DNA of 36,656 bases, taken from assembly GCF_016526145.1 (NCBI RefSeq), contig NZ_JADDUE010000022.1, positions 1 through 36,656 on the forward strand, read 5' to 3'. Origin of the DNA: Saccharopolyspora galaxeae (GTDB lineage: Bacteria; Actinomycetota; Actinomycetes; Mycobacteriales; Pseudonocardiaceae). Position numbers and translations under genes: made by a program. A model generated the notes under the pieces. It was not told the DNA's origin, searched no databases, and was given only the letters and a program-made list of their open reading frames with translations. Each line of letters begins with the position of its first letter. Position 1 is the stretch's first letter. This document shows, one piece after another, positions 18,941 to 26,021 of the stretch.

Positions 18941-20455
18941 GTGCCAGGAACTGGGCTGTGGCGGACCAAGTCGGTCGAGCAATCGATCAAGGACACCGAC
19001 GAGCCGGACACCAAGCTGCGCAAGAACCTCGGCGCATGGGACCTGATCGTGTTCGGTGTCTCGGTCGTCGTCGGCGCGGGGATCTTCACCCTCGCCGCGT
19101 CGACCGCCGGGGACATCACGGGGCCGTCGGTCTCGGTGTCGTTCTTGATCGCCGCCATCGCGTGCGGGCTCGCCGCGGTCTGCTACGCGGAGTTCGCCTC
19201 CACCGTGCCGGTCGCGGGCAGCGCCTACACCTACTCCTACGCGACGTTCGGCGAGTTCATCGCGTGGATCATCGGCTGGGACCTGATCCTGGAGTTCGCC
19301 GTGGCGGCAGCGGCGGTGAGCAAGGGCTGGTCGACCTACCTGCAGCAGGTGCTGGGCCTGATCGGGCTCGAGGGCGCGCAGACGAAGTTCGACCTCGGGC
19401 CGTTGCAGTTCGACTGGGGCGCGCTGCTGCTGGTCGCGATCCTGACCACGGTGCTCGCGGCGGGGACCAAGCTCTCCGCGCGAGTCAGCCTGGTGATCAG
19501 CACCCTCAAGGTGTTCGTGGTCCTGCTGGTCGTGGTGGCGGGTCTGTCCTACGTCAACTCCGACAACTACTCGCCGTTCATCCCGCCGGCGCAGGGTGCG
19601 GTCGAGGACGCCTCGAAGCTGGACCAGTCGCTGCTTTCGCTGCTGCTCGGCGGCACGACCAGCAACTTCGGCGTTTTCGGCCTGCTGGCGGGCGCTTCGC
19701 TGGTGTTCTTCGCGTTCATCGGGTTCGACGTGGTGGCCACCACCGCGGAGGAGACCCGCAACCCGCAGCGGGACGCCCCGCGCGGCATCTTCGGCTCGCT
19801 GGCCATCGTCACCGTGCTGTACGTGGCCGTGGCGATCGTGGTGACCGGGATGGTCAACTACACGCAGCTGGCCACGCAGGGCGATGAGAAGGCGACGCTG
19901 GCCACCGCGTTCCAGATCCACGGCGTCACCTGGGCGGCGAGCGTGATCACCGTCGGCGCGCTGGCCGGTCTGACCACGGTCGTGATGGTGATGTTCCTCG
20001 GGCAGGTGCGGATCCTGTTCGCGATGTCCCGCGACGGGCTGCTGCCGCGCGGGCTGGCCAAGACCGACGAGGAGCGCGGCACGCCGGTGCGCGCCACCGT
20101 GCTGGTCGGTGTCGTGGTGGCGCTGGCGTCGGCGTTCTTCCCGGCGGACAAGCTCGAAGAGATGGTCAACGTCGGCACGCTGTTCGCGTTCATCCTGGTC
20201 TCCGCCGGGGTGATCGTCCTGCGGCGTTCCCGGCCGGACCTGCCGCGCGGGTTCCGGGCGCCGCTGGTGCCGTTGATCCCGGTGCTGGCGATCATCTCCT
20301 GCCTGTGGCTGATGCTGAACCTGACCGCGCTGACCTGGGTGCGGTTCGTGGTGTGGATGATCGCCGGCGTGGTGGTGTACTTCCTGTACGGCCGCAACCA
20401 CTCGCGGCTCGGTGCGCGCCAGCGCGGTGAGGTCTCCGCGGGCGGCTCCGTCTGA
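18941..20455 (+). CDS. APC-family amino-acid permease (cationic amino acid transporter type)
   Basis: A 504-residue polytopic transporter with about 12 membrane helices. The N-terminal cytoplasmic segment (WRTKSVEQSIKDTDEPDTKL) precedes helix 1, which carries the substrate-binding GAGIF motif at 45-49. FASTVPVAGSAYTYSYATFGE and AIIGWDLILEFAVAAAAVSKG-like sequence are typical of the CAT branch (YfnA, Rv3253c); FIGFDVVATTAEETRNPQRD is its conserved loop. It probably imports a cationic or neutral amino acid by proton symport; the substrate is not certain. GTG 18941 has a very strong RBS. Synteny with Rv3253c upstream of manA supports orthology. Confidence 0.92.
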   Translation: MPGTGLWRTKSVEQSIKDTDEPDTKLRKNLGAWDLIVFGVSVVVGAGIFTLAASTAGDITGPSVSVSFLIAAIACGLAAVCYAEFASTVPVAGSAYTYSYATFGEFIAWIIGWDLILEFAVAAAAVSKGWSTYLQQVLGLIGLEGAQTKFDLGPLQFDWGALLLVAILTTVLAAGTKLSARVSLVISTLKVFVVLLVVVAGLSYVNSDNYSPFIPPAQGAVEDASKLDQSLLSLLLGGTTSNFGVFGLLAGASLVFFAFIGFDVVATTAEETRNPQRDAPRGIFGSLAIVTVLYVAVAIVVTGMVNYTQLATQGDEKATLATAFQIHGVTWAASVITVGALAGLTTVVMVMFLGQVRILFAMSRDGLLPRGLAKTDEERGTPVRATVLVGVVVALASAFFPADKLEEMVNVGTLFAFILVSAGVIVLRRSRPDLPRGFRAPLVPLIPVLAIISCLWLMLNLTALTWVRFVVWMIAGVVVYFLYGRNHSRLGARQRGEVSAGGSV

Positions 20456-20787: not shown

Positions 20788-23391
20788 TCAGTCCGCGCGC
20801 GGAGCGGTGCGCTGGGCACCGCCGCGTTCCCACGGGGCGACCCGGCCGCGCGGCTCGGTGATCTCCGGCAGCTCGGAACGCTCCGGAGCATCCGGCTGCG
20901 GCTCGTCCGCCGCGTCGTTGTCGAGCAGTTCCGGGAGCGGATCGTCGACCGGCGCCTCGGCTTCGGCCACGGCCGTCGACGTCGCGGCGGGCTTCGCCTG
21001 CCCGTGCTGCGCCACCGCCCCGAGCGGATCCGCCGCCTGCGCCACGGCCGGCGTGCGCAGCGGCAACGTCGCGCCGCGCACCGGGATCTCCAGGCCCGCG
21101 GCCATCGCGACCGCCCGATCCCATTCCGGATCACCGCTGTAATCCGAGTGCCCCAGCACCCCGGGAACCCACCGGCGGAACGAGAACGGCCCCCGCTGCG
21201 GGTCCGGCAGCCAGTGGTCACCACCGAGCACCAGCGCTCCGGTCGGCCCCCGCGTGGCGGGCGGCAGCGGTCCCTGGGTGCCGTCGGGACGCAGTCCCAC
21301 CCCGATCAGCATCCCGTCGAAGACCTGCCGGTTCCAGGTGGTGACCGCCCCGCCGAGCGGATCGGTACCGCGGCACAGCGACCGCCAGCGGCCGCCGAGA
21401 GATCCGGCGAGATCCCGCAACGACCGGTGCGGCACCACGCCCGGGAACGCGCGCGGGTAGGCCCACTGCAGTTGCGAACCGGCGGTGACCAGGCCGACCC
21501 GTTCCCGATCGGCCTCCGGCAACGATTCCAGCAGCCGCGCGGTCGCCACCGCGGCGAGCAGGCTGCCCTGGCTGTGCCCGACGAGCACCACGCGGGTGTC
21601 CGGTTCGGCGAGGTGCTCGGCGGCTCGCGCGGCGAGTTCCGGCACCACCTTCAGCGCGTAGCACGGCGGTACCACGGGATGCGCCTCGCGCGGCCAGAAC
21701 AACGTCAGATCGCACAGGATGCCCAGGTAGCGCCCGGCGGTCCGTTCCCGCGCGGCCATCTGCACCATCCGCAGCAGTCCGACCGCGAGCACGCCCAGCG
21801 CGAGCACGCCCAGCCCGCGGATCCAGTCCGCCCACTCGGCCCGCACCATCCACGCCCGCAACATCAGCGACAACGTGCTGCTGACCGCCAGCACCGCTGC
21901 CACCAGCAGCAGCACGTGGTGCGAGTAGCGGCGCTGCACGTCCGCCACGTGCCAGGAACCGGCCGCGCTGCGCTGGTCCTGCTGCCTGCCCGCGTGCAGC
22001 AGCGAGACCTGCTCGGGAACGCTGTCGTCCGGCTTGAACAACAGCCGCCGGATCCACGCCCAGGCGCCGAGCCCGGCGCTGCCGAGCGCGAGCAGGATCG
22101 CCGCGCTGCCCCAGAAGAAGGTGACCTCGTCGTAGGAGGTGGGCAGCCGCAGCTGCTCGGCGCGCAGCGCTTGGCGCAGGCTCAGCGCCAGCCCGGAGCC
22201 GAAGCCGACACCGAGCATGGCGGCCAGCATCAGCATCGGCGCCGCCATCCAGCCGCCCGCCCACGGACGCAGCTCGCGCGGCACCGAGGACCAGTTCCCG
22301 CGCGCGAGCAGCGCGGCGGGCACCAGCAGCACCGCCACGACCAGGCAGACGACCAGCAGCGCGATCACGATCGCGCTGACGGTGGGGTCCGAGCCCGGCA
22401 GCGGCCCGTTCAGCTCGCCGGGCAGGACCGCCACGCTCGCCACCAGCACGGCCGCCACGATCATCGAGCTGCGTCGCGCCGCCTTGCTCAGCAGCCCGCG
22501 CAGCAGCTGCGCGAACGCGCCCGAACCCATCCCGGTCGGGTCGTCCAGCAGCACCGTGCCGACCACCGAGAGCACCAGCAGCGCTTCGGCCAGCAGCCAG
22601 CGCGGATCGGGGCTCGGCGCGAGCGGTCCACCGAGCGCCAGCGACGCCAGCACGGCCAGCGCACCGGTCACGTGCAGCGCGCGCAGCGCCGGGGTGTCCG
22701 GGTCGGCCACCACGTTCGCACCGGGCAGCAGCGGTGCGCGGCCCGAGTGCTGCGCTTTGCCGCCTCGCTGGCCTGCTGTTTTGAACGCGTTCGACAACTT
22801 CCACGACACGCTGGAGAGCCAGTGCATCAACAGCACGAACAATCCGAGCAGGAGCATCGCGGCGATCGAACGCAGCGAGGTCAGTTCCCGCACCGACTCC
22901 GGCACGAAACTCAGGCACTGCGCATTCGGCCGGAGACATTGCGCAGCGACCATGTCCAGCAGCACCACGGCGAGCTGCGCGACGAACAGCATCGTCAGCA
23001 GCAGCGCGCCGAGCCGCAGCAGCGCCCGCAGCACCGTCCCGAGCGCCTTGCCGATGCGGTCTTCCGGCCGCGGCGGTGGCAGCATCCAGTGCGCGACGTT
23101 GCTCAACGCGAACGGGAACAGCAGCGCCCAAGTGGCCTTGGACAACCCGCCGGAAGTCATCCCGCCCCACACGTAACCTTCGACGATGCGCGGCACGGTG
23201 CGGTCGCCCGCGGTCAGCATCGGCCCGGGCACCGGCCGCAGCAGCCGGTCGGCGGGGCGCACGATGCGCCCCACCCCGTCGCCCGCGACGTCCACGGAGG
23301 CCACCGAGTCGGTGAGCTCCTCCCCGGTGGTGCCCAGGATGCCGTGCACCCGCAGTTCGACCACGCGGGTGTCCGGCCCCGGTATCTGCAC
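20788..23391 (-). CDS. Large membrane protein with split alpha/beta-hydrolase (lipase-like) domain
   Basis: An 867-residue protein not belonging to a family I can name. It starts with a soluble segment, VVELRVHGILGTTGEEL, whose His16-Gly17 resembles the oxyanion strand of lipases. About eight to twelve membrane helices (about 85-560) follow, then the hydrolase core with VVLVGHSQGSLL (nucleophile Ser607), GTDPLGG (candidate Asp677) and GGDHWLPDP (candidate His726). The tail after about 770 is acidic, proline-rich and disordered. A membrane domain thus appears inserted into the hydrolase fold. Start GTG 23391 is fixed by GGGAGG 5 nt upstream. It is the last of three leftward genes with the cyclase-like and Crp genes, though a terminator and a separate promoter lie between. 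It could be a lipase or thioesterase acting at the inner membrane face; this is inference. Confidence 0.78.
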   Translation of the reverse strand: MQIPGPDTRVVELRVHGILGTTGEELTDSVASVDVAGDGVGRIVRPADRLLRPVPGPMLTAGDRTVPRIVEGYVWGGMTSGGLSKATWALLFPFALSNVAHWMLPPPRPEDRIGKALGTVLRALLRLGALLLTMLFVAQLAVVLLDMVAAQCLRPNAQCLSFVPESVRELTSLRSIAAMLLLGLFVLLMHWLSSVSWKLSNAFKTAGQRGGKAQHSGRAPLLPGANVVADPDTPALRALHVTGALAVLASLALGGPLAPSPDPRWLLAEALLVLSVVGTVLLDDPTGMGSGAFAQLLRGLLSKAARRSSMIVAAVLVASVAVLPGELNGPLPGSDPTVSAIVIALLVVCLVVAVLLVPAALLARGNWSSVPRELRPWAGGWMAAPMLMLAAMLGVGFGSGLALSLRQALRAEQLRLPTSYDEVTFFWGSAAILLALGSAGLGAWAWIRRLLFKPDDSVPEQVSLLHAGRQQDQRSAAGSWHVADVQRRYSHHVLLLVAAVLAVSSTLSLMLRAWMVRAEWADWIRGLGVLALGVLAVGLLRMVQMAARERTAGRYLGILCDLTLFWPREAHPVVPPCYALKVVPELAARAAEHLAEPDTRVVLVGHSQGSLLAAVATARLLESLPEADRERVGLVTAGSQLQWAYPRAFPGVVPHRSLRDLAGSLGGRWRSLCRGTDPLGGAVTTWNRQVFDGMLIGVGLRPDGTQGPLPPATRGPTGALVLGGDHWLPDPQRGPFSFRRWVPGVLGHSDYSGDPEWDRAVAMAAGLEIPVRGATLPLRTPAVAQAADPLGAVAQHGQAKPAATSTAVAEAEAPVDDPLPELLDNDAADEPQPDAPERSELPEITEPRGRVAPWERGGAQRTAPRAD

Positions 23392-23415
23392 TGTGTCCTC
23401 CCGGCCGCAAGGTGG

Positions 23416-23443
23416 ATCATGATCACGTGCTGGTGATTGTCCA
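23416..23443 (-). promoter_or_regulatory. Predicted promoter of the membrane hydrolase gene, overlapped by a dyad
   Basis: On the minus strand TGGACA (23438-23443), a 16-bp spacer and CATGAT (23416-23421) form a plausible promoter 25 nt before the GTG. A dyad with outer GTGGA/TCCAC and inner GATCAC/GTGATT arms covers it, and minus-strand GTGA-N6-TCCA here resembles a degenerate Crp-type site. Confidence 0.4.
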
Positions 23444-23627
23444 CCGCGCATCGGCTCGTGGCGAGCGATTGGCCACTCGATTGTGGCGGCGCGGGCGCGG
23501 CGGTGTCCCGTTTTCGCGGCGAACGGTGGGAAAACCTCGCGCGCACGGCAGTGCCGCGGACGCCCGTTGTGCGCAAGATCGCGACGGAGTTCCCCTGCTC
23601 GCGCCGACGTCGACCGACGAACGCAAC

Positions 23628-23666
23628 GGGACCGAGGAGCCGTCCCCGCCGCGGCTCCTCGGTCCC
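23628..23666 (-). terminator. Strong hairpin terminator after the cyclase-like gene
   Basis: A perfect 15-bp stem (23628-23642 with 23652-23666, 9-nt loop; left arm GGGACCGAGGAGCCG) 26 nt past the stop of the leftward cyclase-like gene. There is no long T-run on the minus strand. The rest of the 300-bp gap 23392-23691 holds only the hydrolase promoter region. Confidence 0.75.
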
Positions 23667-23691
23667 TTCAGACGGGTTCCGCTGGAGATGC

Positions 23692-24510
23692 TCAGCGGGA
23701 CCCGGGTCCGTGTACGTCGCCCATCCGGCCGGCCTGGATCACTATTCCCGAACCGCCGTTGCCGCTGAATTCGTTGTGCACGTGCTGCGGCTTGTCCGGT
23801 TCGGCGCGGCGCTGCTGCGCTTCGGCGACGTCCTCGCTCTGCACCGGCGTCAGTCCCTCGATCTGGCCGAGCCGCTGCGGATTCGCCGACGGCTTCGGGG
23901 TGTAGAGGTAGCCGGTCCCTTGGTAGCTCTTGACCTGCAACGTGTTCTTGGCGAACTGGCTGGGCCGCTGCTTGACGTAGTCGCCTGCGACGACGTCGGT
24001 GTAGACCCGCTCGGACAGGATCGCGGCCAGGAAGGTCACGTCCGGGTCGGAGTCGGCGAGCACTGCCCGCACCGGCTCGGAGTCCAGCAGCCGGTGCGTC
24101 TCGTTCATCGCCGTCGCGGGCCCGGCTTCCGGCACCGGTCCGATGTGGACGCTCGCGCGCAGCCGCAGCCGCAGGTCCCGGCTGCGCGCGCGGACGACCT
24201 CGTCGTGGGCTTCGAGCACTTCCTGCAGCTCGCCGAGGAACGGATCCACCAGGAACGGCGTGTCCACCGCGTCCACCCCGAAGTAGTAGCCATCGCCGGT
24301 GGACGAGCCGAACACCCGGTTGTCCCAGAGCCGCCCCAATTCGCGCTGCTCGAACGCGAGCGAGAGCAGCTGCGGGATGTCCTTGCTGAGCTGTTCCTGG
24401 TGCGCGCTCGGGCTGCTGCTGAAATCCCGCACGTCCACCGCGAACACCGCGCGGTACGGCGGCAGCTGCTTGCTGCGGCGGATGTTCTGGTGCGGGTCGG
24501 GGTTCGGCAT
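23692..24510 (-). CDS. Putative class III nucleotide cyclase-like protein with glycine-rich tail
   Basis: A 272-residue soluble protein. Residues 20-205 look like a class III cyclase homology domain: AVFAVDVRDFSS puts Asp26 at the first metal position, STGDGYYFG puts Asp73 at the second, LRLRASVHIGPV matches the central strand and NETHR (Asn136, Arg140) matches the transition-state Asn/Arg pair. The residues that set adenine or guanine choice are not recognisable, so the product, if any, is unknown. A linker of about 40 polar residues leads to a C-terminal tail (245-267) of the form N-E-F-x-G-x3-G-x-V-I-Q-A-G-x2-G-D-V-H. ATG 24510 has AGAGGA upstream. It lies directly downstream of a Crp/Fnr gene, on the same strand. 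An inactive cyclase-fold sensor is the main alternative. Confidence 0.6.
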   Translation of the reverse strand: MPNPDPHQNIRRSKQLPPYRAVFAVDVRDFSSSPSAHQEQLSKDIPQLLSLAFEQRELGRLWDNRVFGSSTGDGYYFGVDAVDTPFLVDPFLGELQEVLEAHDEVVRARSRDLRLRLRASVHIGPVPEAGPATAMNETHRLLDSEPVRAVLADSDPDVTFLAAILSERVYTDVVAGDYVKQRPSQFAKNTLQVKSYQGTGYLYTPKPSANPQRLGQIEGLTPVQSEDVAEAQQRRAEPDKPQHVHNEFSGNGGSGIVIQAGRMGDVHGPGSR

Positions 24511-24592
24511 CGCGGGCGGTCCTCTCTGCACTTGCTGTTGGAAGCACCATCGGCCACCGGTGCGGTGGCTCGTGTCCGATCTCGGACGTGTG

Positions 24593-24606
24593 GTGATCGA
24601 CGTCAC
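24593..24606. promoter_or_regulatory. Crp-type palindrome upstream of the cyclase-like gene
   Basis: GTGATCGACGTCAC is a perfect GTGA-N6-TCAC palindrome, the core of the Crp-family site. It abuts the Crp/Fnr stop codon and lies about 83 nt before the cyclase-like ATG. The recognition helix of the neighbouring regulator differs from that of E. coli Crp, so binding by that protein is a hypothesis. Confidence 0.45.
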
Positions 24607-25277
24607 TATTGGCGGGAGCTTTGCACGTGCCGGCTCAGCGCGTCCACGTCCAGCAGGTGCACGCCGCCCGGCTCGGTGCGCAGCAAGCCCTCCGCGCGGA
24701 AGTCCGCCAGGCTCGCCGCCACCGAACTCCTTGCCACGCCGAGGAGTTCGGCCAGGTCGTGCTGGTAGAGCGGGACGAAACCCGCGGTGTCGCTGACCGC
24801 GACGAGCCGGCACAGCAGCCACGCGACCTTGGCCTTCACCGGAACACCGGCGAGTTCGGAGACCATGCTGCTGTTCGACCGCAGCTTCATGCTCAGGTAG
24901 CTGGTCAACATCTGATCCAACCTGCGGCGGTGCAGGAACGCCGTGAACTCGGCGTCCCGCAGCACGTGCGCCCGCACGTCGGTGACCGCGTAAACGCTGG
25001 CCGACCTCGGCTGCCGGTCCACCACTGCGAACTCGCCCAACGTGTCGCCGGGCCCGCGCACCGCGAGCAGCACCTGCCCGCGGTCCGGGCGGGCGGCGAC
25101 GACCTTGCACACCCCGCGGACCACGGCCAGCACGTGGTGGCCCTCTTCGCCTTGGTTGAGCACCGTCTGCCCGGGCTCGAAGCGGGCCTGGGTGCCGATG
25201 TCCAGCAGTGCGCGCCAATTCTGCGGACCGAGGTGGTCGCGGAAGCTGCGGTAACCGGGGGAGGGTGGGAAGGCCAC
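24606..25277 (-). CDS. Crp/Fnr-family transcriptional regulator
   Basis: A 223-residue regulator with an N-terminal cyclic-nucleotide-binding beta-roll (about 15-125), a dimerisation helix (about 118-145) and a C-terminal winged HTH (about 165-210). The phosphate-binding cassette reads GEFAVVDRQPRSAS (Gly81, Glu82, Arg91, Ser92), so ligand binding is plausible. The recognition helix VARSSVAASLADF keeps the Arg but has Ser and Ala where E. coli Crp has Glu181 and Arg185. No Fnr-type cysteine cluster is present. GTG 25277 has no clear RBS and may be leaderless or wrongly placed. It is divergent from tmk and first in the leftward group with the cyclase-like gene, a pairing that suggests it reads the cyclase product. 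Confidence 0.9.
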   Translation of the reverse strand: MAFPPSPGYRSFRDHLGPQNWRALLDIGTQARFEPGQTVLNQGEEGHHVLAVVRGVCKVVAARPDRGQVLLAVRGPGDTLGEFAVVDRQPRSASVYAVTDVRAHVLRDAEFTAFLHRRRLDQMLTSYLSMKLRSNSSMVSELAGVPVKAKVAWLLCRLVAVSDTAGFVPLYQHDLAELLGVARSSVAASLADFRAEGLLRTEPGGVHLLDVDALSRHVQSSRQ

Positions 25278-25379: not shown

Positions 25380-26021
25380 GTGGGGCGGCTCATCGTGATC
25401 GAAGGAATGGACGGCGCGGGCAAGCGCACGCTCGCCGAAGGTCTCGGTGCACAGCTGCGGGCGCGCGGGTTTTCCTCGTCGCACGCCGCATTTCCCCGCT
25501 ACGACACCGATGTGCACGCCGAACTGGTGCGGGAGGCGCTGCACGGCGCGCACGGTGATCTCGGTGCATCCGTGTACGGGATGGCGGTGCTCTACGCCCT
25601 GGACCGCCGCGGCGCCGTCGAAGCGCTGCGCGCGCAGCTCGCCGAGCACGACATCGTGCTGCTGGACCGCTACGTCGCATCGAACGCCGCCTACGGCGCG
25701 GCCCGCTTGCGCCAAGGCGCGGACGGCGAGTTCGTGCGCTGGGTCCACGAGCTGGAGGTCGAGCGCTTCGCCGCGCCCCGCCCCGACCTGCAACTGCTGC
25801 TGAACGTGCCGGCCACCGTCGCGGCCGATCGCGCCGAACACCGCGAACGCCGCGAGCAGGACCGCGACCGCGACAGCTTCGAGTCGGACGCCCCGCTGCA
25901 GCAGCGCGTCGGCGAGGTCTACGCGCAACTCGCCGAATCCGGGTGGTGGTCGCCGTGGCTCGTGGTCGACGGCAGCGACCGGCCGGACTACGCCGAGCTG
26001 GCCAGTTTGCTCACCCGCTGA
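25380..26021 (+). CDS. tmk: Thymidylate kinase
   Basis: Phosphorylates dTMP to dTDP for DNA synthesis. The 213-residue protein has the P-loop EGMDGAGKRT (Gly9 to Thr17, Lys15 catalytic), with Arg after GK as in mycobacterial Tmk. LLDRYVASNAAYGAARL is the DR(Y/H) substrate motif, and the Arg/Asp-rich DRAEHRERREQDRDR stretch forms the LID. GTG 25380 is the first codon that keeps the P-loop strand. It lies upstream of mtrA, as Rv3247c does in M. tuberculosis. Confidence 0.93.
   Translation: MGRLIVIEGMDGAGKRTLAEGLGAQLRARGFSSSHAAFPRYDTDVHAELVREALHGAHGDLGASVYGMAVLYALDRRGAVEALRAQLAEHDIVLLDRYVASNAAYGAARLRQGADGEFVRWVHELEVERFAAPRPDLQLLLNVPATVAADRAEHRERREQDRDRDSFESDAPLQQRVGEVYAQLAESGWWSPWLVVDGSDRPDYAELASLLTR

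Follow-up and report, generated by a model that had tools for sequence, protein, structure and literature searches.

The described systems closest to the locus reported here are cAMP-CRP, the Pycsar pairs (PycC with PycTM or PycTIR), the BASS/NLR amyloid signalosomes (BELL effectors; fungal PP, animal RHIM) and the EAD-coupled ternary systems with iSTAND2 (PMC7159879, PMC8195603). Published BASS pairs carry a motif at the N-terminus of the NLR and at the C-terminus of the neighbouring effector, as described in the accessible part of PMC7889193. Among inactive STAND modules, cyclic mononucleotide (cNMP) cyclases occasionally share the adaptor of iSTAND2, according to the accessible part of PMC8195603. 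Here we describe a Crp/Fnr-type transcription factor and a class III nucleotide-cyclase-like protein encoded side by side in Saccharopolyspora galaxeae (Actinomycetota, Pseudonocardiaceae), in a stretch of 36,656 nucleotides, hereafter the window, which is the entire contig NZ_JADDUE010000022.1 of a 6.4 Mb genome. In relatives, the disordered tail of the cyclase resembles the head of a neighbouring STAND-like protein. We find it somewhat probable that these two genes supply the messenger half of an immune-type cassette of actinobacteria, running from STAND/NLR motif templating through cyclase and cNMP to Crp.

As in cAMP-CRP, the locus brings together a class III fold, a cNMP-binding domain and a helix-turn-helix (HTH) output; unlike there, a dedicated regulator adjoins most of the cyclases and the cyclase has a tail motif. 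With Pycsar it shares a class III cyclase fold adjoining a cNMP-binding partner, but the nucleotide receptor here is an HTH factor, and relatives have a STAND partner and the tail motif. The window residues A24, S69, T71 and Y76, counted from the metal aspartate, are unlike those of clade D or E PycC as given in the accessible part of PMC11224242. The relatives resemble BASS/NLR signalosomes in having, in adjacent genes, a receptor N-terminal motif and a matching effector C-terminal motif, with a RHIM-like core in one tail class; they differ in that the effector is a nucleotide cyclase plus a transcription factor, and the usual partner is STAND-like with a degraded P-loop. A matching adaptor on the cyclase and an inactive STAND, in multicellular bacteria, recall the EAD systems, yet the motif here is short and disordered whereas the EAD, in the accessible parts of PMC7159879 and PMC8195603, is mostly alpha-helical, and the Crp gene is standard here. 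Both halves have precedents (Pycsar; BASS; EAD-coupled cyclases). What appears new within the open-licence literature searched is their union: a cyclase that falls outside the family libraries searched, the coupling of its tail to the heads of STAND-like proteins, and a Crp dedicated to it. In that literature we recognised no description of a cyclase/STAND/Crp cassette, although an earlier mention elsewhere is possible.

In the window, the regulator (223 amino acids, 24606..25277) and the cyclase (272 amino acids, 23692..24510) lie on the minus strand, followed on the same strand by a hydrolase-like gene (20788..23451). All three open reading frames (ORFs) are real genes. A first-pass annotation had taken them for a possible single module; the genes stand, and the grouping does not, with the hydrolase separable by its neighbourhood (see below).

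Related loci come from a cyclase profile search of genome contigs with one peptide pattern, which confirmed 129; the 80 best of these were taken, and distant members are therefore under-sampled. Of the 80, 79 gave a cyclase call (the exception is L096), and L136 is truncated by the end of its contig. Crp is the next upstream gene on the same strand in 64 of these 79 loci by clusters, or in 65 by phmmer labels; a STAND-like gene lies at +1 or +2 in 61, and both features occur together in 57. In an overlapping set of 30 cyclase loci (L009-L038, window included), 23 have a Crp match upstream. The pair is intact in all six genus genomes of the sample, and the nearest named cyclase loci are those of Saccharopolyspora sp. 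NFXS83 and S. indica. Judged by gene order and sequence, Crp and cyclase are a widespread actinobacterial signal/response pair, a predicted messenger maker and its predicted reader. The first-pass annotation had suggested such a pair and had called it self-contained; the conserved pairing agrees with it, while the self-containment is unsupported because the cyclase is usually accompanied by a STAND-like partner with an N-terminal motif resembling the cyclase tail.

The predicted structure of the window cyclase is, with confidence, a class III cyclase homology domain, so that a fold check proposed with the first-pass annotation came out positive. In an alignment of the window protein with 62 of 78 listed cyclases, the candidate metal ligands D26 (62/62, one gap) and D73 (63/63) and the candidate transition-state residue R140 (63/63) are invariant, their roles being assigned from strand position and motif and not by residue-level superposition. 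No Pfam match is listed at E<=10 for the window cyclase, and none that is relevant among the 63 members; it is without an NCBIfam match and matches no PADLOC family. A profile search of the PDB with the cyclase alignment returned five matches, all of them cyclases, at E 0.11 to 0.38, which is not significant alone. Absence of a fold from fold-match lists was not counted as evidence.

As for the regulator, its cNMP-binding domain (PF00027, 62.4 bits) and HTH_Crp domain (PF13545, 47.6 bits) are both above the Pfam cut-offs. The phosphate-binding cassette is intact, with G81, R91 and A93 retained in 21/21 and E82 in 20/21 regulators of an alignment of the window protein with 20 of the 64 pair regulators. 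The cNMP-binding domain also gives the protein a match to the PADLOC models for PycTIR (E 3e-11).

The likeness to STAND-like proteins is seen at the protein ends. The last 95 residues of each cyclase were compared by local alignment with the first 120 residues of its STAND partner, and the 61 cyclase/STAND pairs were reduced to 31 non-redundant ones (<75% cyclase identity). Cognate tails and heads had a mean score of 61.6, against 33.5 (standard deviation 2.1) for random pairing, and none of 20,000 permutations scored as high. Against shuffled tails, z was above 3 in 21 of the 31 pairs. The cognate head ranked first for 13 of the 31 tails and in the top three for 20. Within its own locus, the STAND head was the best tail match among all other genes in 24/31 (about 2 expected by chance), with controls at 4/31 for a cyclase core segment and 2/31 for the STAND C-terminus. 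Examples of such tail and head segments are YTFRGPGYVHGGTGDQYN / YTFEGPGFVHGGTGDQHN (L143) and GGIGSIGGDVGTAVAGAQGPVNIGGRQVN / GGIGSIGGGVGAAVAGAQGPVNIGGRQVN (L105). Shared DNA was considered as a cause of the likeness and rejected by reasoning: the two ends belong to different genes, read in different frames where these overlap.

In terms of the partner itself, the predicted model of the S. indica protein (pLDDT 85.5) has, by our own reading, a disordered head (residues 1-41), an NTPase-like domain, a winged-helix-like segment and helical repeats. By fold it matches AAA+/ORC entries and a small number of STAND ones, in many cases at a large root-mean-square deviation. Sequence support for the assignment is weak, with nSTAND3 below cut-off in two of five STAND-like partners scanned, and a PDB profile search with an alignment of 52 of the 61 partners gave no convincing match. 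We also observed a second STAND-like paralogue downstream, at +3 or +4, in eleven Streptomyces loci (L084, L089, L090, L098, L114, L118, L119, L124, L125, L130 and L131); it has a head motif of its own, for example APHGTVNTGVVTGGQRQ.

The window cyclase ends in a disordered tail (residues 245-272 mostly below pLDDT 50) with a RHIM/BASS-like motif at residues 243-268 (23707..23784, minus strand), identified with motif models built in part from this tail. Residues 244-268 read VHNEFSGNGGSGIVIQAGRMGDVHG; examples from relatives are NIMTGTHSGTAIQVGHVHGNI. The tails of this type share an IQAG/IQVG core, which we take to resemble RHIM. Pfam lists nothing for the five cyclase tails scanned. The same core resembles the VQVG of a BASS3 peptide with amyloid-like aggregation, as described in the accessible part of PMC8086366.

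A model of the RHIM-like class built from 12 tails only was run on the called genes of 81 sources (the 80 loci and the window). It gave nine non-cyclase matches, with weak per-domain values of 0.005 to 1.8. Seven of them fall at the N-terminus, or close to it, of a STAND-like or NB-ARC/TPR gene one or two places from the cyclase; the remaining two are short ORFs at a greater distance. RHIM-like tails without a Crp gene directly upstream were found in ten loci, five of which have an NB-ARC neighbour with the motif within two genes. The Crp-less RHIM-tailed cyclases of L072, L076, L078, L117 and L138 are no more than two genes away from NB-ARC/TPR-type proteins that start with a RHIM-like motif, an arrangement similar to that of classical BASS pairs, here with a cyclase in the effector's place (L072 checked in Pfam).

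A constitutive or small-molecule-controlled cyclase could form a plain two-gene circuit with Crp, with no receptor and with the tail as a mere linker; this would suit the window genome and the five other genus genomes, where just Crp and cyclase occupy the site, as well as the intact active-site set and cNMP cassette. The resemblance of tail to partner head in relatives argues against such a circuit, as does the RHIM-like motif, kept in all six genus genomes despite the absence of a partner gene from the site, and we regard it as rather improbable. Ordinary, non-amyloid docking of head and tail would also couple a receptor to the cyclase, and overlaps with the templating reading up to the templating step. 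Head and tail motifs that are short and diverse, with the (I/V)Q(A/V/I)G core in one class only, are in its favour; the RHIM-like core of that class, the disorder of the tails and the way in which BASS pairs place their motifs, N-terminal on the NLR and C-terminal on the effector, in the accessible parts of PMC7889193 and PMC8086366, point away from it. We hold docking of this kind to be unlikely, though it deserves attention.

Under the preferred reading, motif templating, we infer the following course of events. A STAND/NLR-type sensor would assemble upon a trigger, and its N-terminal motif would template the matching C-terminal motif of the cyclase, in a RHIM/BASS-like and probably amyloid manner. 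The clustered cyclase would then make a cyclic mononucleotide, which would bind the neighbouring Crp/Fnr factor and change transcription, perhaps of its own operon. In some species the nucleotide may also open a membrane effector, PycTM. A broader version is a relay in which NLR/STAND sensors seed the RHIM-like motif of the cyclase by amyloid templating, with cNMP passing to Crp and sometimes to PycTM; since the motifs differ between lineages and match within a locus, the lineage-specific pairs would form insulated channels. This version is quite possible, and we put it forward tentatively.

The locus of S. indica offers a comparison at the same site. Its insertion (L070) holds a 157-amino-acid ORF, Crp, cyclase, a 661-amino-acid STAND-like gene and a 248-amino-acid gene, and then the hydrolase; the STAND partner is kept, with head and tail motifs of its own that match. 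We noted that the S. indica tail is of the HDGDNNFNFGS type and resembles the head of its partner (L070:10034-12771), and that the window and the five other genus genomes have no partner at this position and RHIM-like tails instead. From their sequences, the two types of locus may represent a natural case of partner and tail changing jointly. Clusters 10 and 12 of the +2 genes group with the S. indica +2 gene (L070:12797-13543) and its G046 counterpart in a single conserved family (hhalign E 5e-19 to 2e-13), to which the +2 gene of Streptomyces cluster 3 is only doubtfully related (E 3e-4 to 0.04); in the members scanned, this family has no Pfam match above cut-off.

With no adjacent STAND partner and a RHIM-like tail in the window lineage, activation would come in trans, possibly by NACHT/NB-ARC proteins elsewhere in the genome. 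In the own genome, one cyclase and no intact STAND partner were found; the one partial match to the STAND partners (E 1.4e-6) is the N-terminal part of the NB-ARC protein C33:115116. A mixed tail and head model found three long NACHT/NB-ARC-like proteins with an N-terminal motif: C2:216815 (motif E 3e-7; NACHT E 2e-4, below cut-off), C33:311438 (motif E 2e-4; NB-ARC below and TPR above cut-off) and C33:115116 (motif E 0.014; NB-ARC and TPR above cut-off). On sequence grounds these are candidate trans partners only. Across the six genus genomes, the 12-tail model gave 10 non-cyclase matches at E<=0.1, 6 of them heads with a Walker A motif 46-88 residues downstream. Separately, the own genome encodes a 218-amino-acid protein with one apparent transmembrane segment (L197:2194-2850, G000:C21:550223) that starts with the motif THNSISAESRGPTVQTGSARDI; this resembles the genus cyclase tails (VLQIGQARDI), and the protein could be another output of the motif network.

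The missing sensor could also mean that the pair is a decaying remnant on its way out. The STAND gene and the +2 gene of S. indica are absent from the window locus, and no second cassette was found in the own genome, against one in the same-species genome G046. A pair that is intact in six of six genus genomes, and whose aligned members retain the catalytic, cNMP-binding and tail motifs, speaks for the contrary, and we judge decay improbable.

Several observations weigh against the preferred reading, including activation in trans. There is no partner adjacent to the window cyclase, and the mixed model that found the trans candidates, with NLR heads among its members, is partly circular. Within the own genome, the only match of the tails-only model at E<=0.1 is the cyclase itself, and pairwise z values of the window tail against the three candidate heads are 2.7, 3.2 and 5.3. 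In the relatives, z is not above 3 in 10 of the 31 pairs, some of them probably with miscalled starts, and an NB-ARC neighbour was not found in 5 of the 10 Crp-less loci with RHIM-like tails. In the cyclases, the asparagine of N-x-x-x-R, N136 in the window protein, is retained in just 33 of 63 and is otherwise I, V or T. Furthermore, the P-loop of the STAND-like partners is degraded. By a simple pattern, lysine is at the expected position in 0 of 74 members, with arginine in 39 (one a chance head match), no match in 24 and other or chance matches in 11. By analogy, this recalls the inactive STAND modules described in the accessible part of PMC8195603. Lastly, 15 of the 17 loci with a PycTM-like gene are from Streptomyces, and the own genome has no PycTM.

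These PycTM-like genes, in 17 of the 80 loci, give substance to the likeness to Pycsar raised in the first-pass annotation; that the window cyclase matches no PADLOC model does not. In Streptomyces, 12 of the genes lie at +3, 2 at +4 and one in the locus without a called cyclase; S. rectivirgula and Microtetraspora each have the gene at -2, the former on the opposite strand. Two of the 17 were checked in Pfam and PADLOC, and the rest rely on a model from cluster 4 plus one gene. Considering only the genus, PycTM is present in 4/6 genomes, and no transmembrane or TIR effector is found beside the cyclase at the window locus.

The hydrolase-like gene encodes a multi-transmembrane alpha/beta-hydrolase-like protein of 887 amino acids, which the first-pass annotation had offered as a possible output of the pathway. 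It is an old resident neighbour and no member of the signalling module. Of 150 family genomes, 135 have the gene, spread over 45 of the 46 genera. Among the best-scoring 24 hydrolase loci, out of 129 other-genus genomes with a match, tmk and/or mtrA lie on one side in 14, with a permease on the opposite side in 13 of these; none of the 24 has Crp or a cyclase beside the hydrolase within the 1.5 kb flanks read. Of the 51 genomes with both a strong cyclase match (E down to 8e-22) and a hydrolase, 6 have the best hydrolase match within 10 kb of a cyclase; all 6 belong to this genus, and the 45 others include no such case. Co-occurrence thus places the hydrolase usually away from the other two, which was the outcome named beforehand as telling against the three-gene proposal.

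A three-gene module with the membrane hydrolase as output would fit the same-strand adjacency seen in all six genus genomes. The distance in the 45 other-genus genomes, the position near tmk/mtrA without Crp or cyclase in other genera and the absence of any motif at the hydrolase ends, inspected by eye, make it highly improbable. A PDB profile search with the hydrolase gave two matches (E 0.18 and 0.39). Because the hydrolase is resident in genera without Crp and cyclase, the accessory insertion consists of Crp and cyclase only, between tmk and the hydrolase; the claim that all three genes were inserted holds for these two and fails for the hydrolase.

The insertion site is flanked by tmk (25380..26021, plus strand, start maybe at 25407) and, on the hydrolase side, by an amino-acid-permease-like gene (18941..20455, plus strand). 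Outside chromosomal contexts, nine plasmid records carry relatives of the cyclase (8 Streptomyces, 1 Embleya), all below 60% identity, and one scan of viral contigs found none. Two further loci (L031, L032) have one Crp gene flanked by two cyclase paralogues, which suggests two inputs to one regulator.

If the proposed cassette is real, it would bring two established themes of bacterial immunity, signalling by amyloid NLRs and defence by cyclic nucleotides, into a single pathway. RHIM-like signalling in bacteria would gain an enzymatic, amplifiable output, and the switching-on of some orphan class III cyclases in multicellular actinobacteria would be explained. Since there are many diverged pairs of tail and head, one can test directly how specific motif templating is.

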